Shown here one piece after another: positions 466 through 64,000 of a DNA stretch of 64,000 nt; the stretch's first letter is position 1, and each line of letters opens with the position of its first letter. The position numbers and the translations under genes were made by a program. The notes below the pieces were generated by a model. The model saw only the letters and a program-made list of their open reading frames with translations. It did not search any database and was not told the DNA's origin. This DNA comes from Sugiyamaella lignohabitans (lineage: Eukaryota; Ascomycota; Dipodascomycetes; Dipodascales; Trichomonascaceae). The DNA is taken from the NCBI RefSeq assembly GCF_001640025.1, contig NC_031674.1:1426001-1490000 (forward strand). Reading direction: 5' to 3'.

Positions 466-517
466 TGCCTCCGGCGGCTGGGGCTCTGCCCCAGACCCCG
501 TGGCTCGCTTCGCTCGT
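466..517 (+). repeat. GC palindrome element, R-arm half, + orientation
   Basis: Starts GCCTCCGGCGGCTGGGGC and ends in a shortened R box (CTCGCTTCGCTCG). The opposite arm is missing. Confidence 0.9.
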
Positions 518-858
518 TTTGGGACCGGTGGGCAGCTGCTGGGGGTTGCTGTGGTGGGATTCAGGGGGTCTCTGTGGTGGCATTGCCAGACGAAGAGGGT
601 GTATTTTCCAGTGGAAACGGGTCAATTGCTCTGTGAGTCGCTCGGACGGGTGTGGTCCATTCACTGGTCCATTCACTGGAGCGAGCTGAGTTGTTTTTGT
701 GACACTGGATCACGGTCATCGTAGAGGTTCACCAGCCGGGATGGAATCTCGGAATCTCAGTTGGTGCCTGAAAAATCGAACTAAGCCAGCTGCAAGGTCT
801 GGAGTGGCTCAGGAGTCAACTTTAGAGGGCAATTGAGTAGTTGGTTTCCCGAAAGAAA

Positions 859-1073
859 CGAGCGAAGCGAGCTACGGGGTCTGGGGCAGAGCCCCAGCCG
901 CCGGAGGCTGACCTCAACACCCCCAAACGACCCCAGAAACCTACAGAAAAACGAGCGAAGCGAGCCACGGGTTCTGGGGTAGAGCCCCAGCCGCCAGAGA
1001 CAGACCCTGGACCCCAGAAGAAACGAGCGAAGCGAGCTACGGGGTCTGGGGCAGAGCCCAAGCCGCCGGAGGC
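859..1073 (-). repeat. Three tandem R-arm halves of the GC palindrome
   Basis: Three right-hand R arms lie in the same orientation at about 859-909, 952-1003 and 1023-1073, each beginning with an ACGAGCGAAGCGAGC-like R box. The middle copy has several substitutions (GGGTTCTGGGGTAGAG). They lie 3' of YPT1. The spacing of 93 and then 71 bp suggests local duplication. Confidence 0.85.
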
Positions 1074-1283
1074 TGAACTCCAGAAGAGAAGCCCGTGGTT
1101 CGCAAATAAAAGAACTCTTTATTAGTTTAAGTTTAGTGAAGCAAGACAGATAAGCAGGCAGGCAAGGAAGTGGATGGTATAGCGGGAAAGGAGGAGGTGG
1201 TGGGTGCAAGTGTGTGGTGTGTAGGGCATGAAGCGATGAAAAAATAATAATAAAAAGGGACCGCTAGAGGATGGTCCACCCAC

Positions 1284-2406
1284 TTAACAGCAGCCGTTCT
1301 GGTTGGATTGAGAAACGTTGTGGCCACGCAAGTTGACGTTGGCCTTGTCACTCGATCCGCCCTCGCCAGCACCGCCCATTCTCTCTTTGATCTGACGGGC
1401 CATGGTCAAGAAAGCCTGCTCGACATTAGTCGAGTCTTTGGCAGACGTCTCAAGGAACGGAATGTTCATTGAATCAGCAAACTCCTTGGCAACACTGTAC
1501 TCAACCACCTTCTTATCGGCAATATCGCTCTTGTTACCCACAAGCAATTTGTTGACGCCCTCAGTGGCATAACGGTCTATCTCTTGGAACCACTGCTTGA
1601 CGTTGTTGAAACTGTCTTGATCAGTCACATCGTACACCACAATAATACCGTGGGCTCCACGGTAGTATGACGAAGTGATAGTCCGGAACCGTTCCTGGCC
1701 GGCCGTGTCCCAGATCTGCAACTTGACTGTCTTGCCGTCCAAATCAATGGTTCTGATCTTGAAATCAACGCCAATCGTCGAGATATATGACTCGGTATAC
1801 GAGTTGTCGGCAAATCGCAGCAACAAACACGATTTTCCTACTCCTGAGTCTCCGATAAGGAGCAGTTTGAACAGGTAGTCGTATCTACATCCTCGCGTTA
1901 GTTCCTCTTTCCTGGGACTGGGGGAGGGGGTCTGCCTCCGGCGGCTGGGGCTCTGCCCCAGACCCCGTGGCTCCTCTCGCTTTGTTCGAGTCGTTACGTG
2001 GGGTGTAACTGTAGCGTGGTGTTGGTTTGGTGGTGATAGAAGACGCGCCATGTCTCTATCCTCCAAATTCTACCCTCCAACCGGCTGTAAACACACATCT
2101 CCGACGGTACGTGTAGAAGAGTAACTGATAGTATCACCTTGAATGTGCATTTCTCGTAGTTCAAGTTTTATCACACATCCTTCGGATGACGTGGCTCGTG
2201 TACCAGTGATACTGGATTACTGTCTACAAGCGTGATATCTGTTTTCTTGGTCCGTCGGGTGTATGCTTACTGATCCGAATATCAATCAGCATCATTACTC
2301 TGGAAATGCGTTAGATCCTGCTCTCTGGCTCTTTCAATAATGATATGAACACGACATATGCTCATTCTCTGCTGGATAAAATGATTACTTACTACTCAGC
2401 GTTCAT
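1284..2406 (-). CDS. YPT1: Ypt1/Rab1 small GTPase
   Basis: Rab-family GTPase of ER-to-Golgi and early Golgi transport. It has two exons: complement(2396..2406), only 11 coding bases (ATG AAC GCT GA), and complement(1284..1884). The joined protein is 203 aa and starts [18 protein letters not shown], matching the family's [18 protein letters not shown]. The P-loop GDSGVGKS, switch I effector [36 protein letters not shown] and ETSAKDS are all present. The protein ends in Gly-Cys-Cys, the digeranylgeranylation site. The intron (1885-2395) has the branch point CTAAC shortly before its TAG acceptor, an atypical GTAGTA donor, and a GC palindrome half. The donor choice is inferred from reading frame and homology. 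S. cerevisiae Ypt1 is 206 aa. Confidence 0.93.
1932..1993 (+). repeat. GC palindrome R-arm half inside YPT1 intron
   Basis: Left arm with an R box carrying one change (CTTTGTTCGAGTCG). It lies between the donor and branch point of the YPT1 intron, antisense to the gene. Confidence 0.88.
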
Positions 2407-4197
2407 ATCGCGTGTGGTTTATTATTATCTATTGAATATCTTGTCAACCAGCTGATGTGGTTCGTGTGTCGTTATTTTATGATGTTCGATTTGCAAACTT
2501 CAAAAGAGGCAAGCTGTAATCGTGTTCTGGTTATTGGTACTGGTAATTGACGGTCTAATCACACAAATTATGGTCTCTCCGACTGGAAAACGTGGGAATA
2601 ACCTTGGTCTTGGTGGCAATCAAATGCTAACTGATAGTTGGCGATGTAAGAGATTAACCTTAGCCAGTCTTACAATTAGAGATAATGATGAGGTGTTGTA
2701 GTGTGGTTTGTGGCGCCCGCGCGGCTAACATTCAGACCGCAGCTGCTGCTTGCGGTTGGGAGGTCACCCGGATCATAACGGCCTCAATCCGCAAATGGGT
2801 CTCGCGACTGCATGAAACGGGTAACGTTCAGGGTCCCCTCTAGATCAGACTGATTGGGGTCGGTGGGGTCGGTGGGGTCGTGGGTTGGTGGGGTGGAGGG
2901 GGACATGCCTCCGGCGGCTGGGGCTCTGCCCCAGACCCCGTGGCTCCTCGAGCGGAGCTCGAGGAGTTTTGGTGGTCGTTTTATGCTCTGTGGTCGGTTC
3001 TGTGGTCTGGTTCTTTGAAAGTCAGCTGATCTGCCTGTTTGAGCTGTGGGTTTGCGGCGTTATTGAGTGAGCTGAGATGACCGAAGAGCTTGTATGTTTA
3101 ATTATCTTGATTATTTATTGTTAACTACTTCGATATTTTTTTTGACTTTTGGCTCGTTGTGTGTTTACTGATGTCACTATTAAATCCTCGATATTGATTT
3201 AATTAATTTTTCCTTTGTTTTCGGTTAATTGTTCTTACCTTCATTATCTACTGGCCACTTACTCTCAGTATACACAGGGTATTTGGCAGGGATGTGTGCT
3301 AATGCTCGCTGCTGATCTGTGTAATCAAATGTGGATGTGGTTCTTACTTCGGTTGACACAAACGAAAACCACACTCTCACACCATTAAATCACTCAACGA
3401 ACCTACTGAAATCAAATGCTATACTATAAATCTTCCTCGGATAGGGCTCTAAGTCACTTGGTGGGGTATAGTGGGGCAATTCCTGATAGTGGGTAGTGTT
3501 GCCGGCGGGGTCCGGGGGTTACCCCTGAATGATCGACAAGCGGGCCCTTGGAGTCGCAGCTGCTTTTTCTCGTTCGTCTTTAACCCGGATAAATACCCAT
3601 TGTTTTATCTTTTGATGGGTTATTTTGGGGCTATTTTTACGTTTTATTTTGCCAAGAACTAACGCGAATAACTCCGTAGGGTCTCCGGCATCCGCCACAA
3701 GTAAAAACTCAACGGCCAGGCGGTCTTCCAAGGCGGGTTCTTGAAAAAACCCTAACCATATACTGATATAGAGCAGGAGGAGCACGACTCTGGCAAAGGA
3801 GCGTTAGTGCAGGTGAGATACATTCAGTACATATAAAAGGGATCTATCCCTATTTGGGTGTGGTGGACCTTCATCGCTTCTGTAATCTCAAACACTGTCT
3901 GATATTTGTCGTTATTGCCGGGACCTCACGGCTTTGCTCCAGTATTAATCTGTATATATATATATACAGATTATCAGCCGGCACTTGGAGTTGTCCTTTT
4001 TTCAATTGTTTATTACGTTATTGGGTATCGGAAAGCCGGCGTCTTATCTAACCGGTATAGTCTAATTACTCGAAATTGCAAGGAGTGAAATTTCAAGGGG
4101 TTTTCTGTCAATTGGTCGAAATAATTTTTATTTTTGGTTGAAAACTGACTTTATAAAAAATTGAGGTTGCTTGCTGGTTCCAAGTCTAGCGGCTACA
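2407..4197. promoter_or_regulatory. Divergent promoter region YPT1 / GPA2
   Basis: About 1.8 kb between two divergently transcribed genes, with no recognisable gene. It contains one GC palindrome half (2907-2966), an exact TTACCCCTGA decamer (3519-3528), an alternating TA run near 3955-3966, and a TTTATAAAAAA TATA-like tract about 45 bp before the G-alpha start. Short open frames at 3471-3662, 3519-3785 and 3854-4088 resemble nothing I know. Confidence 0.55.
2907..2966 (+). repeat. GC palindrome R-arm half, variant box
   Basis: Left arm whose terminal hairpin is CCTCGAGCGGAGCTCGAGG, a longer palindromic variant of the R box. It sits about 0.5 kb upstream of the YPT1 start. Confidence 0.85.
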
Positions 4198-5658: not shown

Positions 5659-5706
5659 CTCCACCTCTCTAATTTATTTCATTCGCATTCTCCCCTCAGG
5701 GGCGCT

Positions 5707-5842
5707 GCCTCCGGCGGCTGGGGCTCCGCCCCAGACCCCGCTGCTCCTGCTTCGCAGGAGATACCAGGGACCCCGAACGAATCGACTCGAGCGCAGCGAG
5801 AGGAGTAGCGGGGTCTGGGGCGGAGCCCCAGCCGCCGGAGGC
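5707..5842 (-). repeat. Full GC palindrome element, - orientation, between GPA2 and SEC7
   Basis: C-arm left, R-arm right. It fills most of the 246-bp gap between the convergent GPA2 and SEC7 stop codons. Confidence 0.93.
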
Positions 5843-5904
5843 AGAACCCGTCCCGAGAGGCAATAAACAGCACATGTATAAATATACTTAGATATATTCT
5901 AAAA

Positions 5905-12039: not shown

Positions 12040-12128
12040 GACTGATAAGATTGGGGTGCTGCCAAGTGAGGTCGCTCACAGCAGGTGGGGTGTAGTTTAA
12101 CTGGCAGCGATCCAGGGGGACGGGGACT

Positions 12129-12272
12129 GCCTCCGGCGGCTGGGGCTCCGCCCCAGACCCTGGTTGCTCCTGCTTCGCAGGAGATGGCGGCGAGAGGGGA
12201 AGAGGCTAGAAACGACTCGAGCGCAGCGAGAGGAGCAGCGGGGTCTGGGGCGGAGCCCCAGCCGCCGGAGGC
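12129..12272 (-). repeat. Full GC palindrome element, - orientation
   Basis: C-arm left, R-arm right, located in the SEC7/TOK1 promoter gap. The two arms differ in the variable junction (CCTGGTT on the left, CAGCGGGG on the right), so they have diverged independently. Confidence 0.93.
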
Positions 12273-12478
12273 AGGCCCACCCGGGCCAGTGGCAGGGGAG
12301 CACAAAGTATTCTGGTACAGAGAGCACAGGCTTGGCGACACGTTTTTAGAGTTATAGGGGTGAAATAGCAGGAAAACATTCCATGGTTTAGAAGAGAGGG
12401 GTGGAGGGGGAGAGGTGGGGCTGACGACGCCCACCGTTCATCTGAGATCTACGCAGAGACTCCTTATCTTAGCCGCGC

Positions 12479-15763: not shown

Positions 15764-15901
15764 TGCCTCCGGCGGCTGGGGCTCCGCCCCAGACCCCGCT
15801 GCTCCTCTCGCTCCGCTCGAGTCGACTCTCCCCACGGTCCCAGCCATCTCCTGCGAAGCAGGATCCACGGGGTCTGGGGCAGAGCCCCAGCCGCCGGAGG
15901 C
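15764..15901 (+). repeat. Full GC palindrome element, + orientation
   Basis: R-arm left, C-arm right, with spacer ending CGGTCCCAGCCATCTCC. It lies between the TOK1 stop and the SND2 start (308 bp), so it belongs to the TOK1 3' region or SND2 promoter/leader. Confidence 0.93.
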
Positions 15902-16010
15902 AGGTCCGACCCCAGGGACGTACCCTAACATCCTGGCAACTTCACGAGATTCCAGATCATGGGCGACATTTCATGCTCGTCGACCTGAAAATACACACTT
16001 TAAAACAAGA

Positions 16011-16643
16011 ATGGCCAACGCAGCTGCTAAAAAGCTGGCGGTGTCTAATACCGCCAGTCTGAAGACTCTGCATCTCATGTCGCTGGTATTTAATGGCCTG
16101 TTCCTGCTGTCATACTTTGTTCTGTCACGGCCTCGGTCTATAAAACCGTACCTGATCCTGTCGCTGCCGGCGTTTTTCCTCGAGTACCAGATCGAACGAA
16201 TGGGCCGTCCTGTGTTCGACGCCAAGGGCTCGCTCGTTCGCCCGGGTTCTGACGTCAACCAGCCGGGATTGACCGAATGGTTCCACGATGTCATCTACGT
16301 GACGTTTCTGTGTGATTTGCTGGTGGTCATTACTGGCCGTAATGCCGTGTGGTATTTATATTTCTCGGTAGGTTGATGCCTCCGACGGCTGGGGCTCCGC
16401 CCCAGACCCCGTGGCTCCTGCTTCGCAGGAGTTTTTTGGGGGGAATGGCGAGGACTAACATGACAGATTCCATTGTATGCTGCGTATAAGGCGTGGGGAC
16501 TTTTTAAGGGCGTGAGGAGCCAGTTTGGTGGAGGTGCTCAAGGCCCTGCCGAGGAAGCTACAGGTCCTCAGACCAAGTCGAAGAGGCAGGAGAAGCTCGA
16601 GAAGCGTGGTGGAGCTGCTCGCACAAAGTACGCTTCTCACTAA
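16011..16643 (+). CDS. SND2: Snd2/Env10 (TMEM208 family) ER targeting protein
   Basis: Small ER membrane protein of the SRP-independent (SND) targeting route. Exons are 16011..16367 and 16467..16643, giving 177 aa; the yeast protein is about 174 aa. The intron (99 bp) has donor GTAGGT, branch CTAAC and acceptor CAG, and contains a C-arm half of the GC palindrome. The joined sequence reads LYFS-IPLYAAYKAWGLFKG. Family features are an N-terminal Ala/Lys segment, hydrophobic spans around residues 20-60 and 90-120, and the conserved basic tail KSKRQEKLEKRGG. Convergent with SDH2. Confidence 0.9.
16378..16431 (+). repeat. GC palindrome C-arm half inside SND2 intron
   Basis: Left arm ending in the C box (CTCCTGCTTCGCAGGAG). 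It occupies over half of the 99-bp intron, between donor and branch point. Confidence 0.9.
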
Positions 16644-16978
16644 ACCACAGCTTCCCGAGAAAACTCTACGTTCTCGTCTGTTCTTTTGGCTGGTCTATAA
16701 ATCAAATGTAACTAAAATGATGTCATTTTTCGAGCGAGGATCAATGGAATTCAGCAGGTTATGGTAAGATAAACTGTATAAAACTTGATACAATTCATTT
16801 ATGTCTGACATTTACTTTTTAATCAACATTTGTCATTTGAGCTTGTCGTGAACTGCGGGTTGGTAATTGTCAAGGGCTTCTAACAGAATGGCTTCGTTTC
16901 GTGGCTTGACTTTTTATAAACATATGGCAGTGAACCAATTACACCGAAACGAAAAGAACCAGTCCGATTCCCCACGCA

Positions 16979-17029
16979 ACGAGCGAAGCGAGCCACGGGG
17001 TCTGGGGCGAAGCCCCAGCCGCCGGAGGC
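16979..17029 (-). repeat. GC palindrome R-arm half 3' of SDH2
   Basis: Right arm with R box ACGAGCGAAGCGAGCC. It lies about 45 bp downstream of the SDH2 stop in the convergent SND2/SDH2 gap. Confidence 0.88.
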
Positions 17030-17072
17030 AGACTGGCCCCCCAAAAAGAATAAAAAAATGTAAATTAGTTAC

Positions 17073-17891: not shown

Positions 17892-18800
17892 GGTTTTTGT
17901 TGTGTAAATTGGAACAAGGCTCTTTGTAGCAGTGACAAAAAAAGATTCCAGTTGATGCGAGAAGGTGAAAAAAATGCAGTACGGGTGTGTTTGTTGGAGT
18001 ATTGCAATTGAGTCGTAGCAGATCTCGTTGTTACAATTACGACTGAAACAGAACAGATATCAGATATTAAAAGCGTTCTCTACAAAAGGAATCAACCTAT
18101 AGTAGCAGAAGTGTTATCAGTTAGCGGGTTTGTCTGAGTGTTTCTCGGAACGACAAACTCGGAATGATTAATGGACCAAAATCCGATTTCAAAATATGGA
18201 TGGATTTGATCACTGGATACGATTCAGGTCGGCTTTTTAAACCAGATACCAGAATTCCAGAAGTTGTTTTTTTCAGCGGTGGAAACAAAAAAATGATAGT
18301 CAGGAATTCAAAACCCGGTTCACCAAAATATCAGGCACTGTTTAAAAACTAACCCACCAGCATCTGACCAGCCAGTAAACTCCCATTTCCAACTTCGCAC
18401 CGTAAAAGACCAATCATCTGCATTCCTATTGGTCCATCAAACTCCCAAACTCACTTCTCCCCAGATTTTCGTCCTAACCCTATACACCATTCCATTCCGT
18501 GCGAGTCTGGGGATACCAAAACCAGACGGAGCGAGACGGAGCGAGATGGGGCCAAACGGGGGTTCTGTTCTTCAATTCCGAGTCAATTGTATTTACTAAG
18601 CACTGTCAATCAACTCCTCAAAATACCAGTCACTTTTGAACTTCCAAAATCTGAAAAAAACCAGAAATTTCACCTGTTCAAAGGCACTCAGCAGCTACCC
18701 ACCCACTGGCCTTCCACACAGCCGTACATCGGCTGGTGCTCCGGCTGATTCTCGGGTGCACCTCGGGACTAACCGGGGGTTATAGAGGGGGGCTCGACCT

Positions 18801-42845: not shown

Positions 42846-42855
42846 AGCACCCCAA

Positions 42856-46515: not shown

Positions 46516-46553
46516 TTTTCATGACCTTCCTTTTCTCCACGGGTGGGGGGTCT

Positions 46554-46691
46554 GCCTCCGTCGGCTGGGGCTCCGCCCCAGACCCTGGCTGCTCCTCTCG
46601 CTGCGCTCGAGTCGTTTCTCCCACGGTCCGTGTCATCTCCTGCGAAGCAGGAGCAACCAGGGTCTGGGGCGGAGCCCCAGCCGCCGGAGGC
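46554..46691 (+). repeat. Full GC palindrome element, + orientation
   Basis: R-arm left, C-arm right, about 40 bp after the stop of the Ras-like gene. The left arm has CCTCCGTCGGC instead of CCTCCGGCGGC. Confidence 0.92.
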
Positions 46692-46751
46692 ACACCCCTG
46701 CCGATCTATGCGAGATTAAAGTGGCCCTGCATTCCTGGGCTAGGGCCAGTG

Positions 46752-46895
46752 CCTCCGGCGGCTGGGGCTGCACCCTAGACCCCGTGACTCCTATTCTCCT
46801 ATTTAGCAGGAGGCGGCTGACACCGCCGGAGCAACGACTCGAGCGCAGCGAGAGGAGCCGCCAGGGTCTGGGGCGGAGCTCCAGCCGCCGGAGGC
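46752..46895 (-). repeat. Full GC palindrome element, diverged, - orientation
   Basis: Degenerate C-arm left (CTCCTATTCTCCTATTTAGCAGGAG) and good R-arm right. It lies 60 bp after the previous copy and in the opposite polarity. Confidence 0.88.
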
Positions 46896-47091
46896 AGGTC
46901 ATGCCCGCCGGCGCGGCTACCGGGAAATTGAGATGCAGCTATCAGAATTTATATAACACGCACGTGCTGCACGGTGCAGACCGTTGGACGATGACGGGCT
47001 GTTTTGGGACGGTGCAGCACACGACATTTCCTGATTGGGCCGACAACAAACTTGTTCTTTACAGGAGTATGGAACAAAGAAACGGGGGTGT

Positions 47092-47234
47092 GCCTCCGGC
47101 GGCTGGGGCTCCGCCCCAGACCCTGGTAGCTCCTCTCGCTTCGCTCGAGTCGTTTGTCGGAGGTACTCGGTAGTTAAAACTCCTGCGAAGCAGGAGCAAC
47201 CAGGGTCTGGGGCGGAGCCCCAGCCGCCGGAGCC
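47092..47234 (+). repeat. Full GC palindrome element, + orientation
   Basis: R-arm left, C-arm right, with last bases GGAGCC instead of GGAGGC. The spacer (TTTGTCGGAGGTACTCGG) is unlike the common one. Confidence 0.9.
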
Positions 47235-48039
47235 ACACCCCGTCTCCGGCAGAAGCCCCCCGGCAGCCTCCTCGAACAATGGGTGCATCGAAATCGGCCT
47301 AATTCGTTAACCTATTGCCTGTTTGGACCGCGATCGGCCAGTCTGCAATCGGCAATGCACCGGCGTCGTGGTTTGGGTGGCTCGTGGCTGGCTGGAAGGG
47401 TCCCATGTGCGCACGGCTGGCATGGAATGTGAGAAGGAGCATGTGCGCCGAAAAAAAATTACCGGCTTATGCAGCCACTGAGGCCTTTGCATGGACCGGG
47501 CTGGTGGTGCTGCTGCTGGTGATAATCTTTTGTGTGTGTGTGTCTCTCATCGGACAAGCCTGTTTTGGAGAGAGAAATATTTTACTGTACAGAGTGCGTT
47601 CTTTTTTTTCTCGTTTACAAACTTGGATACTTGTTTTCTGTCTTTGGTCAGGATCTTTTGTGTTTTATATAAAAAAGGTTTTTTGTGAGTGTTGCAGTTG
47701 GTTCATAGACTCAATTGCGACTTTCTTTTTGGCTTGGCTTCGTTTGACTGTAGCAGATTCAGTGATTGAATTGAAATTTACAGTTGACAGAGATTCTCGT
47801 TTGAAGACTACGATTGATTGAGATTGAAATTGGACAGTGAGAACTGGAGATTGAACGTTTGAATTTTGAGTTGAACCGACGTTCATCGAATATTTCTGAG
47901 TTCCAATTAGACTGATTTCGATTTGAGTTTGGATTTAAATTTGACAGAGTTGAATTTAACTGAACTTGAGTGAACTTAAGTGGATTTGAACTGGATTTGA
48001 ACTGAAGTTTGCTAAGACTAATAGGTTGTGGTTGCTACA

Positions 48040-50277: not shown

Positions 50278-50352
50278 TCTATCTCCCTGTTATCTATATA
50301 TATAATCGTAATCAGTATTTTCTTTCTCAAACCCCCACGATTCAGGGGACAT

Positions 50353-50493
50353 GCCTCCGAGGGCCGGGGCTCCGCCCCAGACCCTGGTTGCTCCTCTCGC
50401 TTTGCACGAGTCATTTCTAGGGGACGGGGAGATGCCTCCGGCGGCTGGGGCTTCGCCCCAGACCCCACTGCTCCTCTCGCTTCGCTCGAGTCG
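50353..50493 (+). repeat. Two tandem R-arm halves of the GC palindrome
   Basis: Left arms at 50353-50412 (diverged: CCTCCGAGGGCCGGGGC) and 50434-50493, same orientation, spaced 81 bp apart. They start about 75 bp after the VTC2 stop. Confidence 0.88.
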
Positions 50494-51095: not shown

Positions 51096-51111
51096 CAACG
51101 AGGGTCGAGTT

Positions 51112-51165
51112 CTCCTGCGAAGCAGGAGCCACGGGGTCTGGGGCAGAGCCCCAGCCGCCGGAGGC
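51112..51165 (-). repeat. GC palindrome C-arm half
   Basis: Right arm beginning CTCCTGCGAAGCAGGAGCC, about 220 bp from the BEM1 stop. Confidence 0.9.
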
Positions 51166-51387
51166 AGCCCGTCTCCGAAGACGTGGTTAGAGGGTCCTGT
51201 TAGCGTGCTATGTGGCAGTAAAAGTACATGGGAGAGGGGGAGGGAAGAAGGGAGATTAGCGTAGCAACAGTAGATATTCAGTTCATAGGAGTCGTAAATC
51301 GTATATGGCCAGTTCAGATCATCAGAAGAGCAGACGAGAGGGTCCGCTAGTGTCTCGTGTGGGTACGGTACGGGGGGATAAGTGTCT

Positions 51388-53963
51388 TTATCGCGCGTAG
51401 AGGACGAGTTTGGTTTTGTTTCCTAAGGCAGTGTGGAACTCGTCGTCGTCGGCGATTTCGTTGAGCTCGTCATCGGCGTCTTTGTACATGAGGGTGGGGT
51501 TGTCGAGTCCGAGACGCTGGCTGATGCGCTCGTGGAGGGATGCGAAGGTGATGTTCGATGGCAGTTTAATGGCGATAAGGTCGTCCTGGTAGAACACCTT
51601 GACTTTGATGGATGTGACCTCGGCAGGTGTTTCGGTCACTACAGACGATGACGAGGGTCCGAAAGATGAATCGTTTTCATCGGGATGCTCGTCTCGTTCA
51701 AGCACAATTGTATCGTCACCTCCAGCTGAATTGCTATTGATAAACCCAGCTCCAGCAGCAGATGATTGCTGACGTTGGTGGGATCTGTGAGTACCAGTTA
51801 CAGTTGATTCGGAAGCCATTCGTGAGTGTGATCGAGGTCCTACAGGTTCAAGAGGAGATAATGGCGCCGACATAGACGACTGCGAGGACTGAGATTGTGA
51901 TGGGTTATGGGACATGGAGCTTTGTTGGTACTGTTGTTGCAGCTGAGAATGGTCTTGATGCTGGAGCTGTGGTTGTTGTTGTGAGGATTGTGAGTATTGT
52001 TGTTGGTGTTGTAGGTGTTGTTGAGAGTGTTGAGATTGTAGATGTGGAAGTTGTGAATCAGTGTCTTGTGAATACTGGTCTTGTGACGAGACAGAGCCGG
52101 CATATGAGTTGACAATGGATCGTTCATGGCCGTGAGTCGAGTTCGACAGCTCTGAATTTCGCAGACTCGAGTTTCTCAGACCAGCACTACCAGCGCCAGC
52201 TCCAGCAGCAGCAGAAGCAGGTCCTGCTGATGAACCGCCATTGACACCGTTTGCATCGTACTGACTAGAGTCATAGACAGTATCATGACCTGATTCTCTC
52301 GAAGGAGGTTGAGGCATGATATTGGTTTTATAAGGAGTCTCGACATCGCCAGTACGAAGAGCAAATAGTTGTTGAACTATTGGACTTCGCGAGACATAAC
52401 CCGGCATCATGACGAGATTGCGAACATAGTCGTCGAGATTTGCCCGTCGTTGACTGGAAATCGAGTCATTGACATAGGTCAAAGGACCAGGCATAAACGG
52501 CAGAGTTCGTTGCTTACCAGTTCGACCAGCCTCGTCAGGAAACTCATCAAGCAGTTTGATCTGGAAATCGTAGAAATCCTGGTAGTATCTGCATAGATTG
52601 CGAAACTTACCATTGCTCAATTCGGCAACTACAAGGTACCAGTACCTGCCTCCGTCAAACGCATATCTATCGACCGATGCGTTTACAACATGATAAGGAG
52701 TCGAGCTATTTCTTGCTGGTACTCCATTAATAGGAGTTGATACTCCGCTATTAATACCATTAGCACCCGATCCAGATAATCCACTAATACTGCCTGGTCC
52801 AGTACCAGAAACACCGCCATTGCCGTTATTATTACTAGCAACCATGGCATTTCCACCGTACTCATCAGTGGATGAGCCAGTAGTATTAGTAGATCTATGA
52901 CGTTCTCGTTGTAAACTCATTGCTTTCAATTGACGAGAAACTGCTGCACTGGCAGCATTATCATCGTCGAATTTTCCTAGTGGAATACTACTGGCTTTAT
53001 ATTCAGCCGCCATTCTCTTCCATTCCTCGACTTTAGGTACTCCAGCAGCACGAATGGCTGCTTGGACATCTTCAACCGGTTTATCAGAACCCACTTCACG
53101 AATCTGGACATAAGAAATAGGAATAAGGCCCGGTCCACCCAGTCGACCAATGGGCTTAGCTACAAACCATTCTTGATTCGACTGAGCAATGACGATAATA
53201 GATTCTCCACTATTGGCCTGTAACTCGTCGGGTCGTTCAGCCTTGAAATCGTACAAAACAATGCCATACAAAGGAGATCGATTAGACGAAACCGACGACG
53301 AGTTATTACTCTGACGAGAAATGCGCTGTTTTGAAGCAGCCGATTCTGGAGACGAGACCTGAGTGGCGCTAGTATTAGTAGTAGCGGTCAAAGTACTAGC
53401 GGCACCACTGGCACCGCTCATATCACCGCCAATAGGGATCGTATGAATACTCTCCTGACGCGAGACGACCTCAAAGTACGTCACAGGAACCATTCCGTGC
53501 ATATTCGACGGAGGATCACACGCTTCATACCAATCGGTAGCATTCTCGCTTCCAACCACGTATAAAAAGTCGCCCTTGGCAAAACTCAACTCGCCAGGGC
53601 CCTGGGCGTTATAATCGTAGATGGCACGAATAATCTTCTTCGGCGGCGTCGTGGCCAGTTTGGACTTTGCGGGCAGCGACGTGTGCGAGTGTAATGGACC
53701 TTGGCTCGTTGACGAGCTCGACGTGCGCTTTTCTCCCTTCAGAGACCGGCGAATGCCCTGGATCACGCGTTAGTACACGGGGGAGGGGGGTCTGCCTCCG
53801 GCGGCTGGGGCTCTGCCCCAGACCCTGGTTGCTCCTGCTTCGCAGGAGAGTTTAGACGCTGGGAAGGGATCCTGACGCAACGACTCGAGCGAAGCGAGAG
53901 GAGCAACCAGGGTCTGGGGCGGAGCCCCAGCCGCCGGAGGCACGAACAACTCACTTTTATCAT
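51388..53963 (-). CDS. BEM1: Bem1 polarity scaffold protein
   Basis: Scaffold linking Cdc42, its GEF Cdc24 and PAK kinases at sites of polarised growth. Exons are complement(53955..53963), only nine coding bases (ATG ATA AAA), and (51388..53757). The 197-bp intron has donor GTGAGT, branch CTAAC, acceptor CAG and a full GC palindrome. Joined length is 792 aa, starting MIKGIRRSLKGEKR. Domains in order are SH3-1 (about 45-105, IRAIYDYNAQGPGELSFAKG), SH3-2 (about 160-225, GIVLYDFKAERPDELQANSG), PX (about 360-480, RYYQDFYDFQIKLLDEFP) and a C-terminal PB1 (about 715-792, IKVKVFYQDDLIAIKLP). A Gln/Ser-rich linker with polyQ runs (about 570-640) makes it longer than the 551-aa S. cerevisiae protein. 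Confidence 0.95.
53794..53941 (-). repeat. Full GC palindrome element inside BEM1 intron
   Basis: C-arm left, R-arm right, with spacer TTTAGACGCTGGGAAGGGATCC. It fills three quarters of the intron. Confidence 0.93.
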
Positions 53964-54283: not shown

Positions 54284-54701
54284 TGCCAGCTGATATACAC
54301 ACACACGGAACAAATCAGGCAGGCCCCCTGCTACTTTTTTTTTTCAGCTGCCGCTCTTTTTTCACGCAGGGTGGAACGCAGGTTGGCGGGCAGTGGGCTC
54401 GCTGGCAGCCTCCACGCTAGTCACACGGGCTACTACTGTTGGGACAATCACCGACCGGTACTGCTCCTGTTGCTGCTGCTGCTGCTCGATCTCAGCCGGA
54501 GGTTGAAGCCGGCCGCGATCTGGCTAAGGCGGTTGGGAGATCCGATGTGCGGATAAAACGCAGAGATCCTTACCAGGCCGGGTTGCTGGAGATGCTTTCA
54601 CGGAGATCCAGGGGCCACAAACCGCTCGATTCCGGACTTGTTTTCCTATCCCTGCTCCGATCGTTAGTCTCACGTCCCACAGGGGCCATTCTCCCGACGC
54701 C

Positions 54702-54842
54702 CGACTCGAGCGAAGCGAGAGGAGCAACCCGGGTCTGGGGCGGAGCCCCTGCCGCCGGAGGCACGACCCCGGCCCCGTACTGCCTCCGGCGGCTGGGGCT
54801 CCGCCCCAGACCCGGGTTGCTCCTCTCGCTTCGCTCGAGTCG
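54702..54842. repeat. Inside-out pair of GC palindrome R arms
   Basis: A right R arm (54702-54762) is followed 19 bp later by a left R arm (54782-54842). The GCCGCCGGAGGC ends thus face each other and the R boxes point outward, the reverse of a normal element. Confidence 0.88.
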
Positions 54843-55053
54843 GGCGTGGGGGAGTGAAAACAAAGGGGGGTTGGGGCCGAGGAGGTGAGGCAGGCGACGA
54901 ATGGGGGGTGGCTTTCGCGTTTCAACTTACCGTAGAATGGGGTTGTAGTGCAGGGTGTGTTATTGTCGGGTTGCGGTGGTGCTGCTACGGGTGATTAGCG
55001 GTAGATGGGTCGGTTGGTCAGAGGCCACAGGGAGGTTGTTGTGGATGGTGAAT

Positions 55054-55336: not shown

Positions 55337-55707
55337 TAGTACGAATGTCCTGCTGCGATTTCAGCGGCAAAAAAACCCAAAAGTTTTGTCACAACAAACT
55401 AAATGTGACTATGCTGGTGGTGGTAGAATTACAACCGAACCTCCATGAACCACCCAAAGCGGTTCCCCCGGTTTATATACTCATCTCCTGCAGCAGCGAT
55501 TGACAAAAGATAATGCACCCCCATCGCCGATCACCACCCCGCGACCCTCACACAAAATTACACACCGCCCGTCCATACACCCTCTTCTCGAGCCAATCTC
55601 GGCTGGCTGTTGAAACCCAGTTGCAATACGAGCCCCGATCCCCAAACTCTAAACACGAGCTGCAGCTCTGTTTCTCTAAAATTAAACTCCGTTTGGGGGT
55701 CGGGCTT

Positions 55708-55836
55708 GCCTCCGGCGGCTGGGGCCGCCCCAGACACTGGCTGCCCCTCTCTCTGCGCTCGAGTCGGTCCTACCCCACCCTCTCCTGCGAAGCAGGAGCA
55801 ACCAAGGTCTGGAGCTGAGCCCCGGCCGCCCGAGAC
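55708..55836 (+). repeat. Decayed full GC palindrome element
   Basis: R-arm left (CTCTCTGCGCTCGAGTCGG), C-arm right (CTCCTGCGAAGCAGGAG), with deletions in the small hairpin (GGGGCCGCCCCAG) and the end GGAGAC-like. It keeps the R-left, C-right polarity despite decay. Confidence 0.85.
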
Positions 55837-56008
55837 AGACCCCCAACCCCCTGCAGATACCCTGGACCCTGCGTCGCCGACCTGCAGCTGCTGAAGTAAC
55901 GAAATTGGCCCTGTAGCGGGCGTCCAGGGGGTAGGGCCAGCGTGGAGTTGGGAGTTTTTACCCCTAGAAAGCACCCCTCGGACCACTCATTATGGGACTC
56001 CCGACGCC

Positions 56009-56069
56009 CGACTCGAGCGAAGCGAGAGGAGCAACCAGGGTCTGGGGCGGAGCCCCAGCCGCCGGAGGC
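56009..56069 (-). repeat. GC palindrome R-arm half upstream of MET22
   Basis: Right arm with R box CGACTCGAGCGAAGCGAG, ending about 100 bp before the MET22 start. Confidence 0.9.
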
Positions 56070-56167
56070 AGACTCTCACCCCCACAGACACGGCTGTGCA
56101 GTGACCCTCGAGATGCGTCATGAAGTGAAGAGAAACCCGAAGTTAGTGAGTGAGAGTGAAGAAGAAG

Positions 56168-58900: not shown

Positions 58901-59159
58901 TTTACACTAAAGTATGACGAGTCTGTTATCATTACGGGAACACTCAACGGCATCGGTTGTATTCTCTGGCATTGTATTAGCATTTTTTTACGAGAATTTC
59001 CCTCGCTACATTGTCTGCCAAACCTAATTCTGACTTTCTAGAAGCAGTTAGCTCCAGGCTGGAACTCTAAATCCTACTCTTCTAACCCATACTACTTAGC
59101 GATGTGAAAATAGACTCTAAATAACTGCTTTCCAAAACTAACAAACTACATTTCAAGCT

Positions 59160-59462
59160 GCCTCCGGCGGCTGGGGCTCTGCCCCAGACCCCGTAGCTCC
59201 TCTCGCTTCGCTCGAGTCGTTACTAGAGGGTGCCAGCCCTCCGGGAGTATGGATTATGTTGTCACAATTCAAACAGCTACATGATATATGGTCAATAGGA
59301 GCCTTGAGATGCCAAATGAGACGACGAACCGCTGCTGCAGTTCCCACAAGAGAAATTGATTTGCACACAAGCTCCCTCACAGACCCGTCCCACCACGAAT
59401 CCAGCCATCTCCTGCGAAGCAGGAGCAACCAGGGTCTGGGGCGGAGCCCCAGCCGCCGGAGG
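59160..59462 (+). repeat. GC palindrome split by about 190 bp
   Basis: Left R arm 59160-59219, right C arm about 59408-59462. The usual AGCCATCTCC spacer end is still attached to the C arm, so unrelated DNA seems to have been inserted into the spacer of one element. Confidence 0.85.
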
Positions 59463-59593
59463 CACCTCGGTCGCGGTGACAGCAGCCGAGACACGATACT
59501 TTACCCCTGATAGACAGCGAAGTAGCCGGATTAGCGCTGGCAGGAGACGGAGGCCCATTTTCGGGGCGCCAAGTCGAGGGGGGTGCATGGCCC

Positions 59594-59652
59594 GATCTCC
59601 GGCGGCTAGGGCCCTGCCCCAGACCCCGTCGTCTCCGCTTCGCGGAGCGGTT
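59594..59652 (+). repeat. Decayed GC palindrome half
   Basis: ATCTCCGGCGGCTAGGGCC followed by CTGCCCCAGACCCCGTCG and a short hairpin CTCCGCTTCGCGGAG. Confidence 0.75.
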
Positions 59653-60423
59653 GGGGGATCAAATTTACGAATATAAATAAGATGTGGTGACGCGCATGTT
59701 TCGGCATCCAGGTTCCGTCCGATGACACTGTTGCCTACTGTTGTTATTGTTTTGTTTGCGGGTGTTATCAGCAGCAGAAGAGGCATGCCGGCCCGTTAAG
59801 ATGCTACTCTGGTGTTGCTGCCGGAGATGACGGTTGCCATAGCACAGCCAGAGATAACAGGCCTGGTAAGCCAATATTCTCGAAGCAGCAGTGGCAGCAG
59901 TGGTTGCCAATCGCGTCAATCGGGGGTCGATGACTCTATAGAAGAGCAACTGAGACATGTATCTATGCGCCCGAGCGGATCAGATAAACTGCCAGGATTG
60001 GCGATGCGTCGATTAGCTCGACACCTGCCCTACTTGGCTAGCCTGGAAAATAAAGATCGAGCGACGACGTGGAACACCGGGCCCAAACGGGCGGTGTGCA
60101 TGGAACCGGTGGTTTAAAAATAAATCACTGTTTGTAACAGACTCCAAATGCTAATATAATCACAATAATAATAGTAACCTGTAACTTTTAACATTTAACA
60201 TTTAGACTCATTAATAATACTCGTACTCATAATAATATACGGGGTACTCCGGGGAATTTTGACACTCGCCAGCAAACCTTAATTCCCGCTAACCTGCCGG
60301 AATCTCCTATCAGCGGTCTGCCGAAATCAAATCAAGCACCGGCTGGTTTCATCACCAACCGACCGAACAGTGTTGACTGCCGGCATCTCCTGCACCCGAC
60401 AGTTCGGTGGGAGGGGAGGGTGT

Positions 60424-60484
60424 GCCTCCGGCGGCTGGGGCTCCGCCCCAGACCCTGGTTGCTCCTCTCGCTTGGCTAGAGTCG
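60424..60484 (+). repeat. GC palindrome R-arm half
   Basis: Left arm with a slightly changed R box (CTCGCTTGGCTAGAGTCG). Confidence 0.88.
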
Positions 60485-60849
60485 TTTCGTTGGCAGTCTC
60501 ACGAAACAGCAGCAGCTGCTGGGGTGTTTTTTTGGCCTCAATCTCACTTTCGCGACCGGCGGGAGACCGGCTGTCGGCGCCAATTGCCGGTGGAGTTGGA
60601 CCAGGAGCCTGAACCCGCGATCCGGTCGCACCACCTAGTCCCCAGCCAGCCAGCCCACCACCGGCTGGACCCCGTCCCGCAACGCGAGTCCCCCGACGGG
60701 TCCATCTCACCCGCACTTCCTCTCCAAGCATTCCCCCTGAATCCCCAGTCCCGGCATCACTCCGGCCCCTCCCCATATAAGAATACGCCGATACGGCCCC
60801 CGCCGAAAAAGCAACTCCCCCCTGACGTAGTCTCCTGGGGGGAACCTGT

Positions 60850-60987
60850 GCCTCCGGCGGCTGGGGCTCCGCCCCAGACCCTGGTTGCTCCTGCTTCGCA
60901 GGAGACTGCCACGACCGCCGACGAAACGACTCGAGCGCAGCGAGAGGAGCAACCAGGGTCTGGGGCAGAGCCCCAGCCGCCGGAGGC
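60850..60987 (-). repeat. Full GC palindrome element, - orientation
   Basis: C-arm left, R-arm right, with spacer GACTGCCACGACCGCCGACG. Confidence 0.93.
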
Positions 60988-62726
60988 AAAGCCCCTCCCG
61001 TAGTGGGTCAGGAGGCCAAAATAACCGAAACATTGGCCACGACAAGACTGAGTCAGACTGGCGGATTGGGTTTAGAGTCTATTGGCGGGAAAACGGGGAG
61101 TGGGTTTGAACATTAGTTTACATGTTGGAAAATAAAGTTAACAGTTGGTGGACATGGGGATATGCAACAATATGCAGCGCGCATGCAGAACACCGCATAT
61201 CCTTTCTACCGCCTGTGGCGTTCTGCCCGGTTCGCTCCGGTGACATGCTGAAGTCGGGCATCGGATTAACCCCTAACCTGTTCTTCCCTCAGGCCCGGGT
61301 GAAGATAGGGCCTTTTTCGTGCCAGTCGGGCCTAACGGCTAGCCAAACGGGAGCGTGGTAAATGCACAGTTGCATAACTGAATACCGCAGAATAGTGTTA
61401 GGCTTGCAGCAACCTTCAGCTCCTAGCCCCCATGCGAAGAGCAGCCAGACGGCCAGGGGTGCTGCTGGTTACAAGTTAAATAACATCATCCACCGGCACC
61501 GGCACCCGGGATTTCTCGCACAACCCTCGCCATCTGACACACAACCAGCTGCGAGTAGCATCCGTGAGAATTTTGTGCCTGTATCGGCAGTAGATGTGTG
61601 TGATGGACATTCTGTAATGTATATTAACGGTCAGTTGCGACTTTGGTTATAATTTTTTTTTCTTACTTGTATAACTACTGTTTGATTGTTTATGTGGTTA
61701 TATTAACGAAATTTTTTTTTGGTTATTATTATTTTTAAAAAATCGACATTGATTTGGTTTGTTCTTTAACAAGACTGATTGTTTATTTTCACTGTTTTCT
61801 GAATATTCATATTTCTGGTCGGAGTTACAAGGCCGAATTTTTATACCGACGATTGTCACACACACTCAATTTACACGCACTGAACGCCGGAAATTATATG
61901 GGAAATTTTTAACTCTATACCAAGACCACTATTTTGTAAATATCATTAGCCATTGTTCAGTGGTGTGTATTATAGAGGATTTGATGAGAATTGGATCTTG
62001 ATTTCGGTTGATTTTTATTTTATTTTTTTTTATTGTTCATTGTGTTCGTTTTTTTTTTCTTGTTATTTTCTTTTATTTTTTTTCACCTAGTAGTAGTACC
62101 TTTGTGTGGGTAACATTGTGTGTTGACCACGGACCTAAATCCTTCTGGTACGATTTGGGAAGTGCACGTTGGAATTGAATACAATTGACAGTGAATCAGC
62201 ACGTTTTTTTTTTATTTACGATTGTCTATTGTCTTTCTGGACTTTTGTGGATATCGACATTGAATTTTGGTTTTGACTTTGAGTTTGACTTTGCCGGCAC
62301 ACACTGATACAGAATAGTATACACAACAGCATACGGAACAGTACAGTTGAAAAACTGAGTGCACGCCTTGATACCAGTATCTTAGAACACATAGCATAGT
62401 TCACAACGAAAACTGTTTAACAGTGTGAACTGAGTATAACGAACAAGCTAATCAGCATCTGCTCGTCATCAATTTTATCAGCTCATTAACACGGCACACT
62501 AATAAAACGATATTTATTTCACAGCAAATAGAAAGACGACTGGAGTTTCTCGACCTAGACAGACAACATTTCGAATTCACCCTCGCTTCAATCAAATTGC
62601 TATCAAACAAACAAACCAATAGAATACGGTACAATAACGTCAAATATACTACAGATTGGCTAGATTATATGTCACCACAATCTACGGAATTTTTATAACA
62701 ACAATCAAATACACAGCAGCTACACT

Positions 62727-63189
62727 ATGGCTTCAGTGCAACCATCGTCACTGACAGCCTCGACATCAATTGGGTCAAGTTCATTAGAGGGAAGAGAACA
62801 GCAGACACAACAACAACATCAACAACAACAACAACGTAAGCAGAATAGTGGACCTGGAGCTGGACCTTTAGGTGTAGCAGTTGGATCTGGTGGTGCAGGC
62901 TCTACTACATCCGTTGCTAATGCTAGCGCCCACAACAACCCGCCAGGTATTCGTGGTGGGCCTAATACCACAGCAGTTGCAACAACATCAGCTATCACAG
63001 CCAAACCAGCCGTGACGAAACCAGCTTTTGTACCTATAAGACCAGCGTTTCGACCATTACTGCCGAAACCATGTAGTGCCAGTGCACCAACAGGCTGGAG
63101 CTCGACATCGGAAATCACTATTAGCACCCGTCATCGTGCTGATGCTGTATTACCAACCACCAGAAAGGGCCGGAAATCAGTTTCAAAAG
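62727..63189 (+). CDS. First exon of an unassigned, possibly regulatory gene (continues past the window)
   Basis: ATG 62727 follows a very T/A-rich promoter-like region. Exon 1 encodes 154 residues and ends at donor GTGAGT after AAA G (63190). The protein is low in complexity: Ser/Thr-rich start, a QQQHQQQQQ run near residue 31, Gly/Ala/Ser stretches, then KPAFVPIRPAFRPLLPKP and ADAVLPTTRKGRKSVSKG. That last part weakly resembles the Hap4/HapX motif WVLPPRPKPGRKP, which would suggest a CCAAT-complex partner, but the match is short. Without an intron the frame stops at 63240. The intron then runs beyond position 64000 or its acceptor was not recognised. Long leader, Gln-rich start and a large intron fit a regulatory gene. 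Confidence 0.5.
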
Positions 63190-64000
63190 GTGAGTATATG
63201 AAGTTACCTAGGAGGTGGTGGGATCAGAAGATCAGGGGGTGAAACAGGACTTTTTGGAAAGAATAAGGACATCACTCGGGGACTCTCGGGCAGGATTCGG
63301 AGAGCAACACGGAAGAGGAACTGGGAAGATGGACGCGGAAGATGGACACGGAAGGGAAAGACGAAAGGGGAACACGAAGGGGAAGGTATACAACAGATGG
63401 GCATTGGGTTTACTATTACAACTTGGAATTTATTGGATTATTTGTTTTTTATTGGGTTTACAGGATGAATACGACAATGGAATTATGAAATTCCAATAAA
63501 CAGCAGACGATATTTTTAATATCCGAGCAATTGGGTTGAGCAAGAGAGCGTCAATTTACAAGCGGTTTGACAGTAAAGCTTGTAAAGTCTAATATTGCAC
63601 ACCTGCATGACAATTTTTCCGCAGGCATGGAAGCAAAATTTCAGGCCCCCACGTTTTCACCCTGTTGTTCCTCGAAGTGGTTAGAGCCGGTCGGTCTTTA
63701 TTAGACTAACGAGCCGGTCCCATCGTGCCGGCAAGAGCAGAGGCCGAGTCGATCGAAAGTCCCAACCGGTTCTGTCCGTGCCCATTCTTGCATTCCCCTT
63801 TTGAATTTCACGGTGACTCTCTCCTTACCCTATCACCCACACATCCAGCCGCGCCATTACCCCTGATATTTCCTGTGCCGGCTTTTTGTACCCGGGCTAC
63901 CCGAGTCAGCAATCTCCCTCCCAGTCGACCAGAAACGACACGGCTCTCCTGCGAAGCAGGAGCAACCAGGGTCTGGGGCGGAGCCCCAGCCGCCGGAGGC
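63190..64000 (+). other. Probable intron of the last gene, incomplete
   Basis: No convincing CTAAC-to-AG acceptor with open frame is seen before the window edge. It contains one exact TTACCCCTGA (63857-63866) and a C-arm palindrome half at the very end, consistent with the habit of these elements to lie in introns. A GC-rich stretch at 63680-63780 holds short inverted repeats (GAGCCGGTC). Confidence 0.4.
63946..64000 (-). repeat. GC palindrome C-arm half at the window edge
   Basis: Right arm starting CTCCTGCGAAGCAGGAGC and ending CCGCCGGAGGC exactly at position 64000. No left arm lies to its left. Confidence 0.92.

Follow-up and report, generated by a model that had tools for sequence, protein, structure and literature searches.

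The nuclear genome of this yeast carries a dispersed family of short, GC-rich palindromic elements, which we take, with somewhat better than even confidence, to be a non-autonomous mobile family that is built and behaves like the REP doublets (REPINs/BIMEs) of bacteria. The family is located in the nuclear genome (15.93 Mb in 4 contigs), not in the mitochondrial genome; the open reading frames (ORFs) of the window, that is, the whole 64-kb stretch of DNA that was analysed, include nuclear genes such as Sec7, G-alpha, and Ras. The 32-nt core of the element arm matched 69 times in the window with at most three mismatches and never in 100 shuffles. The hairpin GGGGCTCNGCCCC matched 151 times with at most two mismatches, against 4.26 expected and 10 in the largest of 100 shuffles, a count in which many of these palindromic hairpins were scored on both strands. 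When up to seven mismatches are allowed, the window holds 76 arms, arranged as 20 convergent pairs and 36 single arms in about 56 places. An earlier note on this DNA had described a dispersed GC element family in about 50 places; both the family and the number are confirmed, and all 13 coordinates that it listed carry full elements. In a 264-kb sample that includes the window, elements occupy 3.9% of the sequence and 8% of its DNA outside ORFs, and the genome-wide total of arms is estimated at 7,600–9,500. Rfam gave no match in the window at gathering cut-offs, a text search of the literature with the arm letters returned no paper on a repeat family by title, and the consulted part of the main text of the S. 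novakii genome paper contains neither "palindrom" nor "transpos" (PMC12232646).

The full element is a unit of about 138 bp that reads 5'-TG...CA-3'. Among the 41 elements of the 264 kb, TG is found at the outer end in 37 and CA in 39; the conserved block begins sharply at these ends, and outside there is just a G-rich bias, with a G-rich tract immediately beyond each CCTCC end. Arms carry terminal boxes of type R or C or, in addition, of two further types, G (GCTCGCTTCGCGAGC) and g (GCTCGCTTCGCTCG). Arm cores are about 2% diverged, and box identity is 98.5% for R and 94% for C, values flattered by the collection of boxes with patterns of at most two (R) and three (C) mismatches. The variable sites of the consensus are mainly the h2 loops, the C-box loop, the ACCC-box junctions, and the spacer; spacers are 47% alike on average (48 elements), and the consensus bears out the earlier description of the spacer as partly conserved. 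Element 23785, the one example folded, gave z = -13.9 as RNA and -12.3 as DNA. In the h2 stems, no compensatory change was found in 1099 cells (10 GU, 30 broken), so selection on pairing itself is unsupported. Deviations of the left arm recurred in the mate arm in 0 of 26 cases, with 0.24 expected, that is, arm changes are private. Since mates lack common deviations, there is no sign of arm-arm conversion, which was rejected as a process. The full elements and related structures of the window are as follows.

5706..5843, +, full element R-C, 138 bp, between the stops of the G-alpha ORF (5658) and the BIG2_C ORF (5905)
12128..12273, +, full element R-C
15764..15902, -, full element, C-R on the + strand
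18936..19074, -, full element
19449..19587, -, full element, unit A of a ~350-bp tandem repeat
19799..19937, -, full element, unit B of the ~350-bp tandem repeat
20148..20188, unstranded, internally deleted element, unit C of the ~350-bp tandem repeat: two outer arm ends around one common h2 hairpin
20405..20543, -, full element
21237..21373, -, full element
22813..22951, -, full element, spacer relative of 23785
23785..23922, +, full element, 138 bp, the folded example
25503..25641, +, full element, spacer relative of 23785
30913..31050, -, full element
43164..43306, -, full element
45653..45808, unstranded, convergent pair with C and G boxes (R-C exception)
46553..46692, -, full element
46750..46896, +, full element, decayed R arm
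47091..47235, -, full element
53793..53942, +, full element
55707..55837, -, full element, diverged
60849..60988, +, full element

The pairing of arms is polar. Of the 20 convergent pairs in the window, 19 join R to C (12 C-R and 7 R-C on the forward strand, with 1 C-G), and in the 264 kb this holds for 35 of 41 pairs, the others being 3 C-C, 1 C-G, and 2 with an unclassified arm, with no R-R. Exact box patterns, which miss diverged copies, gave 1047 R..C places genome-wide against 3 R..R and 7 C..C. The earlier statement that arms are never joined R-R or C-C is thus correct for the window; outside it, the part on C-C holds almost, though not strictly. That the element is one directional unit inserted in either orientation held up, as the R..C places divide between the strands as 522 and 525. 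Adjacent arms less than 200 bp apart in the 264 kb are convergent in 41 cases, against 5 divergent, 5 ++, and 8 -- arrangements.

The mobility proposed earlier is supported by inference from the spacer lineages and single-copy flanks of one genome, in which neighbouring elements lie in different flanks and yet appear to belong to common spacer lineages. Full elements less than 1 kb apart (n = 10 pairs, one copy of the tandem duplication left out) have a spacer similarity of 0.69, compared with 0.48 when permuted, and none of 5000 permutations was as high. Against the mobile reading, neighbours show no clear clustering of h2 loop types (42 vs 36.0, p = 0.086). The spacer of element 23785 is found at 62 places in the genome (at most three mismatches, its own included) on all four contigs; 11 adjacent pairs of these places are less than 5 kb apart, whereas draws of 62 places out of rotated versions of the 264-kb element map lead one to expect 2.1, and the largest of 2000 simulations gave 8. 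The flanks of 13 tested elements are single-copy, with 26 of 26 matches being their own sites at the sensitivity of that search, and, as a point against mobility, the joined flanks of the same 13 elements revealed no empty site in this genome.

Target duplications, which the earlier note had proposed to look for, were sought by comparing flanks within this genome, and none was found. There was no excess of exact direct repeats of k = 2–9 at small offsets in 41 elements, nor of k = 2–6 and 8 at the ends of 64 elements; the direct identity of flanks (41 elements) revealed no target duplication, and direct repeats of 2–4 nt, including the AG/ACT type, were not in significant excess (p 0.21–0.62, 64 elements). 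This lack speaks against retroposition of an element RNA; the host genome has 13 matches to reverse transcriptase (RVT_1). RAYT, the Y1 transposase, had no match in the host genome at E<=1, with a control that matched in 6 of 14 genomes, and the Helitron Rep domain had none, with controls likewise at 0. No transposase domain was found in the 18 ORFs scanned among the 23 of at least 200 aa in the window, two of them being without any domain, so that the earlier view of a non-autonomous element without a transposase ORF is borne out as far as seen.

We suggest that what moves is the entire R-C element, about 138 nt long, which would fold into one long hairpin and whose arms may also form smaller ones. 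A strand would extrude as a hairpin in single-stranded DNA, at a replication fork or in an R-loop, be copied or released at its base, and be joined to nearby DNA as a single strand; joining of this kind would leave no duplication and would often place the new copy within a few kb. Re-mobilisation would be confined to copies still able to fold, so that arms and boxes would stay uniform and loops and spacer would diverge from lineage to lineage. The enzyme may be one of the host's hairpin-processing nucleases or an unrecognised trans-acting nuclease.

Local spacer relatives and the lack of target duplications would also be expected from accidents of recombination or replication, such as template switching, gene conversion, or hairpin capture in breaks, without any dedicated mobilisation. 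This explanation is possible but rather unlikely in our view. In its favour, arms of one GACCCC/GACCCT subtype tend to be neighbours on the chromosome (77 adjacent same against 65.3, p = 0.005), and single arms are likewise clustered by box type (p = 0.035 and 0.017). Compared with shuffled flanks, an element's own are more alike in inverted orientation (15-nt identity 5.56 vs 4.87, p = 0.0009), one element has a 24-bp exact inverted match 6–7 bp outside its ends, and, the tandem duplication excluded, one pair of neighbours among 166 arm pairs less than 1 kb apart continues alike past the boundary for 17 bp with one mismatch. However, accidents do not readily account for TG/CA ends in nearly all copies, for the rarity of flank carry-over, or for mates that bear no mark of conversion. 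A common flank beyond the ends was separately considered as a general trait and rejected, as, apart from the tandem duplication, it is confined to that one pair of neighbours.

Single arms make up 36 of the 56 places in the window, or about two thirds. Those listed below represent 35 of the 36 counted and come from the list at up to six mismatches; their box-side ends are approximate.

466..525, +, single arm, g box
851..909, -, single arm, g box, 1 of 3 tandem arms lying downstream of a Ras-family ORF
944..1002, -, single arm, g box
1016..1074, -, single arm, g box
1933..1992, +, single arm, C box, within the 5' part of the Ras-family ORF, probably in an intron
2906..2965, +, single arm
16377..16436, +, single arm, R box, immediately past the stop of the TMEM208/SND2-domain ORF (ends 16376)
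16972..17030, -, single arm, g box, ~45 bp past the Fer2_3 ORF stop
18800..18859, +, single arm, C box
28126..28185, +, single arm, G box, ~13 bp past the asparaginase-family ORF stop (ORF end 28114)
34914..34973, +, single arm, C box, past the stop of the TPR ORF (ends 34890)
35279..35337, -, single arm, C box
37812..37871, +, single arm, C box
38423..38481, -, single arm, C box
38542..38600, -, single arm, C box
39187..39245, -, single arm, G box
39872..39931, +, single arm, C box
40451..40509, -, single arm, G box
42281..42340, +, single arm, G box
42386..42445, +, single arm, G box
42788..42846, -, single arm, C box
45322..45381, +, single arm, C box
45844..45902, -, single arm, G box
50352..50411, +, single arm, C box
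50433..50492, +, single arm, C box
51108..51166, -, single arm, R box
54693..54851, unstranded, two divergent C-box arms that make up an inverted repeat (71 bp, 97%) interrupted by 17 nt
56012..56070, -, single arm, C box
59159..59218, +, single arm, C box
59406..59464, -, single arm, R box
59594..59653, +, single arm, diverged
60423..60482, +, single arm, C box
63943..64000, -, single arm, R box, outer end truncated where the window ends

At 16377, the TMEM208/SND2 domain match ends at 122 of 167, which makes an intron at this position possible. The excess of single arms, the two further box types, and the relation to gene ends described below go beyond the earlier note. Single arms have 0.63 changes per 28 sites and paired arms 0.67 (p = 0.31 for paired arms being less changed). 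Alignments of C-type single arms stop in the loop region in 29 of 41 cases and continue into the other arm in 10 of 41. Most single arms may be full elements that lost the other arm by breakage at the palindrome centre.

Genes were called as ORFs alone, of at least 150 aa in the 264 kb and at least 130 aa in 30 loci on another contig. In the 264 kb, 141 of 157 arms lie outside ORFs, and unit ends crowd behind stop codons, with 38 of them within 100 bp against 21.8 expected and 32 in the largest of 2000 simulations, whereas 5' gene ends show no enrichment (8 vs 9.3 expected). Where a single arm lies no more than 100 bp from a gene end, its CCTCC end is turned toward the gene in 18 of 19 cases in the 264 kb and in 5 of 6 in the 30 loci, or 23 of 25 when both samples are pooled. 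These observations, together with arms in Desulfovibrionaceae loci that also lie behind stops and have the CCTCC end toward the gene in 15 of 16 cases within 100 bp of a 3' end, are what would be expected if the arms were gene 3'-end elements (transcription stop, mRNA end, or insulator) selected copy by copy and not primarily selfish. We regard such a host function as unlikely. No more than 38 of 101 ORFs are followed by a unit within 100 bp of the stop; the hairpins are nearly identical on either strand, so an RNA hairpin needs no orientation; stem changes are not compensated; and R-C polarity and the common spacers of neighbours would be superfluous. The orientation can be accounted for without function under the mobile reading: near genes, only loss of the gene-distal arm would survive, which would leave the CCTCC end of the remaining arm facing the gene.

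Among known systems, the closest functional parallel is, on the best reading, the bacterial REP doublet or REPIN, not a standard MITE. In the consulted parts of the literature, REP doublets are described as two palindromic units inverted about a spacer that is short and variable; most are extragenic, their partners may differ (heterodimers), some families have thousands of units, and some dimers sit inside larger palindromes (PMC3733652, PMC3116915, PMC8266576); REP singlets are described there as decayed relative to doublets (PMC3116915). The yeast family resembles them in its inverted pair of units, variable spacer, mostly extragenic position near the 3' ends of ORFs, thousands of units, and over-representation of convergent over divergent neighbours. 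It differs in its eukaryotic nuclear setting, in the lack of any RAYT/Y1 found, in longer arms with several hairpins, and in single arms that are not decayed. By eye, the outer ends read TG|CCTCC, with GTAG/GTGG-like letters within the arm and CGTC in the spacer; unlike in REP, neither GTAG nor CGTC was seen at the outer ends.

The comparison with mitochondrial GC clusters and MITEs made in the earlier note is not supported, given the nuclear location and the lack of target duplications. Yeast mitochondrial GC clusters are described, in the part of the source consulted, as short, GC-rich, mobile palindromes whose mechanism is unsettled, the GC42 cluster being 42 nt long, with AG or ACT repeats on its flanks that are interpreted as target duplications (PMC4478555). 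The present elements are likewise short, GC-rich, palindromic, and apparently mobile, but they are nuclear and 138 bp long. Like the palindromic repeats of Volvox and the fungal mitochondrial double-hairpin elements, as far as described in the text consulted, they are selfish-looking short hairpin repeats in noncoding DNA. In Volvox, organelle and nuclear repeats occur, the nuclear copies being judged inert organelle transfers at ~0.06% of the sequence in the part consulted (PMC2670323), against 3.9% of the 264 kb for the yeast elements.

Look-alikes of the arm occur in bacteria. The exact 26-nt core (23 fixed bases) was found in 15 bacterial loci, a count that stands without a matched control pattern from the same collection, and 4 of the 15 also have CCTCC, which was not part of the query, just upstream (~0.03 expected by a rough GC-rich estimate). 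An Acetobacteraceae MAG holds 272 exact arms, almost the same arm as in the yeast, and a Desulfovibrio MAG holds 93 related arms; of the 9 distinct loci seen, 7 hold the bacterial arm in convergent pairs. If the yeast lineage had acquired a palindromic repeat from bacteria, these likenesses would be explained, but we consider such descent improbable: no boxes, TG ends, or spacer were seen in common with the yeast element, the exact arm is in 0 of 384 other genomes drawn from the class of the Acetobacteraceae MAG, and GC-rich hairpins invite convergence. Just as improbable, in our estimation, is that the family is a true REP-type element of bacterial descent, present in thousands of copies in a yeast nucleus and moving as a single-stranded hairpin with host machinery. 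RAYT as the mover of the bacterial look-alikes was rejected. It is not found in the Acetobacteraceae MAG with the 272 exact arms; two Desulfovibrionaceae genomes have two matches each, the matches in the Desulfovibrio MAG are fragments of a single broken gene, and the six loci cut around these matches contain no full arm motif. Rfam on nine bacterial loci gave one c-di-GMP riboswitch just under the cut-off and four microRNA-model matches far below theirs. A plasmid search with the arm was uninformative (19 records, 17 from Streptomyces, query coverage at best 67%).

MITEs are short, non-autonomous elements with terminal inverted repeats, high copy number, and target-site duplication. A conventional MITE, derived from a cut-and-paste DDE transposon and with terminal inverted repeats of ~45 bp, would fit the inverted arms, the small size (below ~600 bp), the high copy number, and the mostly intergenic position. 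It is nevertheless very doubtful, because no fixed-length duplication or direct-repeat excess appears in 41 and 64 elements despite arms that are just ~2% diverged, the two arms carry different boxes in fixed polarity, and relatives are local. An artefact of assembly or amplification deserves hardly any credence: whole-genome amplification can create palindromes, according to the part of the source consulted (PMC6218980), but more than a thousand exact R-C places of constant polarity, distinct spacers, matches on all four contigs, and single-copy flanks at 13 tested sites oppose it.

To our knowledge, mobile palindrome families are a bacterial and organellar theme. If the reading as a mobile, REP-like family is true, a REP-like life would be possible in a eukaryotic nucleus without RAYT. 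The family makes it testable how long palindromes spread and survive where host repair nucleases cut them, and it bears on the movement of GC clusters and hairpin elements. If it is not convergence, the near-identical bacterial arm would mean transfer between domains.

The consensus of the 35 elements that join an R arm to a C arm begins with TG, CCTCCGGCGG, the hairpin h2 (CTGGGGC-nnn-GCCCCAG), ACCCcGTnG and the R box (CTCCTGCTTCGCAGGAG), and continues through a spacer of about 22 nt (atngctgggaccgtcgacgnaa) into the C box (CGACTCGAGCGnAGCGAG), the complement of the arm, and CA. The variable positions of the arms lie mainly in the h2 loop, the C-box loop and the ACCC-box junctions. Among 48 elements, likeness is 98.5% for R boxes and 94% for C boxes (the boxes belonged to the search pattern), and the spacers show a mean likeness of 47%, with a median of 78% to the nearest relative. 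When one example element was folded, it lay 14 (RNA) or 12 (DNA) standard deviations below its shuffles.

The arms are numerous and have a fixed polarity. At up to 3 mismatches, 69 arm cores were found in the window, versus none in 100 shuffles; in the 264 kb that include the window, 157 arms were found at up to 7 mismatches, and the reversed pattern had no match at up to 8. The same 264 kb hold 41 convergent pairs, 35 joining R with C, three C with C and one C with G, two having an unclassified box, as well as 75 single arms (41 C, 11 G, 10 R, 9 g and 4 unclassified). Genome-wide, there are 2187 exact arm cores and none in the reversed pattern; exact box patterns match R..C at 1047 places (522 on one strand, 525 on the other), R..R at three and C..C at seven. 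Scaling by area, or by the proportion of copies in the 264 kb that are exact (45 vs 157 arms; 28 exact box pairs vs 41 pairs), gives an estimate of about 7,600–9,500 arms and 1,500–2,500 paired elements for the genome. With a single arm counted as 60 bp, elements account for 3.9% of the 264 kb; for the part of it outside ORFs of at least 150 aa, the share is 8.4%. Regional clustering is also seen: the arm subtypes GACCCT and GACCCC, and also the G-box single arms, are distributed differently over 39000–64000 and 1–38600 of the window.

The host sequence is nuclear. The genome amounts to 15,932,016 bp in four contigs, the window lying at C2:1426001–1490000; strain CBS 10342 of Sugiyamaella lignohabitans is described as having 16.0 Mb, four chromosomes, 50% coding sequence and 5% split genes (PMC5499181). 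Genes were called by ORF length, and the analysis rests on one genome of one strain. The window ORFs are of the usual yeast nuclear kind, among them Sec7, BIG2_C, G-alpha, a Ras-family GTPase, spermidine synthase and VTC, and their closest named proteins belong to Trichomonascus, Geotrichum and Blastobotrys. A transposase domain was found in none of the 18 window ORFs scanned out of the 23 of at least 200 aa. The yeast genome contains 13 reverse transcriptase matches, three of which (C3:656590–657351, C3:703545–704306 and C1:3056215–3056976) have equal scores, which suggests a retroelement that multiplied recently.

Conservation begins abruptly at TG|CCTCC, with TG at the left end in 37 of 41 elements and CA at the right end in 39 of 41, and beyond the ends only a G-rich tract is found (45–68% G at positions −14 to −6). 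Direct duplication at the ends gave no sign, either in the first tests (41 elements) or in a later one (64 elements). The left and right flanks of the same element are, in inverted orientation, somewhat more alike than shuffled flanks (p 0.0009–0.007, 64 elements; in the smaller tests with 41 elements mostly 0.013–0.056, and 0.17 and 0.25 in two). At one full element on a yeast locus (L040:6174–6311), a 24-bp unique flank sequence occurs in two exact inverted copies, 6–7 bp outside the ends; in bacteria, REP dimers sitting inside palindromes have been described (PMC3733652). At 13 elements, the flanks were single-copy at the sensitivity of that search.

Similar arms exist in bacteria. Exact matches to the 26-nt arm core occur at 15 loci of GTDB genomes and at one locus of viral contigs, and a looser pattern (up to 3 mismatches) matched in five of those 15 GTDB genomes: 152 times in an Acetobacteraceae MAG, 93 times in a Desulfovibrio MAG and three times in each of three others. 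The Acetobacteraceae MAG carries 272 exact arms with loops of 3–6; a sample of 384 further genomes of its class had none. Convergent pairs were present in seven of the nine distinct loci seen in this MAG, with variable spacers and loops. Many Desulfovibrio arms have the h2 stem changed on both sides (CCAGGGG..CCCCTGG). The boxes, TG ends and spacer are, as far as seen, not common to the yeast element and the bacterial arms. The convergent hairpin pairs of the Acetobacteraceae MAG (L060:6766–6873, L081, L083, L087 and L093) are high-copy, with often GNRA-like loops and purine-rich outer flanks, and its genome gave no match to Y1 transposase. In the Desulfovibrio MAG, two intergenic stretches of about 490–500 bp (L080:1500–1998 and L084:1500–1985) have inward-pointing arms at both edges and are packed with further hairpins; a called stop codon precedes the first arm by 6 and 15 bp.

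In the yeast, 38 unit ends follow a stop at a distance of up to 100 bp, where 21.8 are expected; at 5' ends the count is about as expected (8 vs 9.3). Single arms turn CCTCC toward the gene in 18 of 19 cases where the ORF end is less than 100 bp away, in 12 of 19 at 100–250 bp and in 13 of 27 beyond 250 bp (264 kb); 30 loci on another contig gave 5/6, 4/6 and 5/10. Among 27 arms of Desulfovibrionaceae loci, 16 have a 3' end within 100 bp (15 of them with CCTCC toward the gene), four lie at 5' ends (all toward) and seven inside called ORFs; of 16 mostly paired arms of the Acetobacteraceae MAG, 10 point toward the gene, three do not, and three lie inside ORFs. When 41 C-type single arms were aligned to the consensus, 29 ended in the loop region, two stopped just short of the box end, and 10 ran on into the second arm, four nearly to its end. 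We read single arms as mostly full elements broken at the centre, the gene-proximal half surviving; a direct role of the arms at gene ends is a serious rival. At 54693–54851, two divergent C-box arms with their flanks form a 71-bp inverted repeat (97%, 17 nt between), oriented oppositely to full elements. The single arm at 1935 probably lies within an intron: at 1885–2051, an AACTAAC branch-point-like and a TAG splice-site-like sequence were noted by eye on the minus strand, and the conserved part of the Ras-family ORF, which by eye looks Rab-like, seems to begin after them.

The spacers speak for copying. After removal of one tandem-duplication copy, full elements separated by less than 1 kb (10 pairs) had a spacer likeness of 0.69, versus 0.48 with spacers permuted over the same positions, and none of 5000 permutations was as high; for separations below 5 kb (n = 20), p = 0.0002. 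Spacer-alike neighbours are present in both orientations, and outside the tandem duplication only one neighbouring pair shares flank sequence, 17 bp with a single mismatch. A spacer followed through the genome to 62 places, including its own, forms 11 adjacent pairs within 5 kb versus 2.1 expected when places are drawn from the real 264-kb map after rotation. In the tandem repeat at 19100–20545, a unit of about 350 bp recurs with the element in it, and in one unit the element has lost the part that separates its h2 hairpins. Arm deviations amount to about 2% and are private to each arm, which suggests that the arms were uniform at the time of copying and the spacers by then already different. 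Selection for folding at every round of copying would give rise to both uniform arms and differing spacers; strong selection on the arms in place is the alternative, against which the absence of compensation counts weakly.
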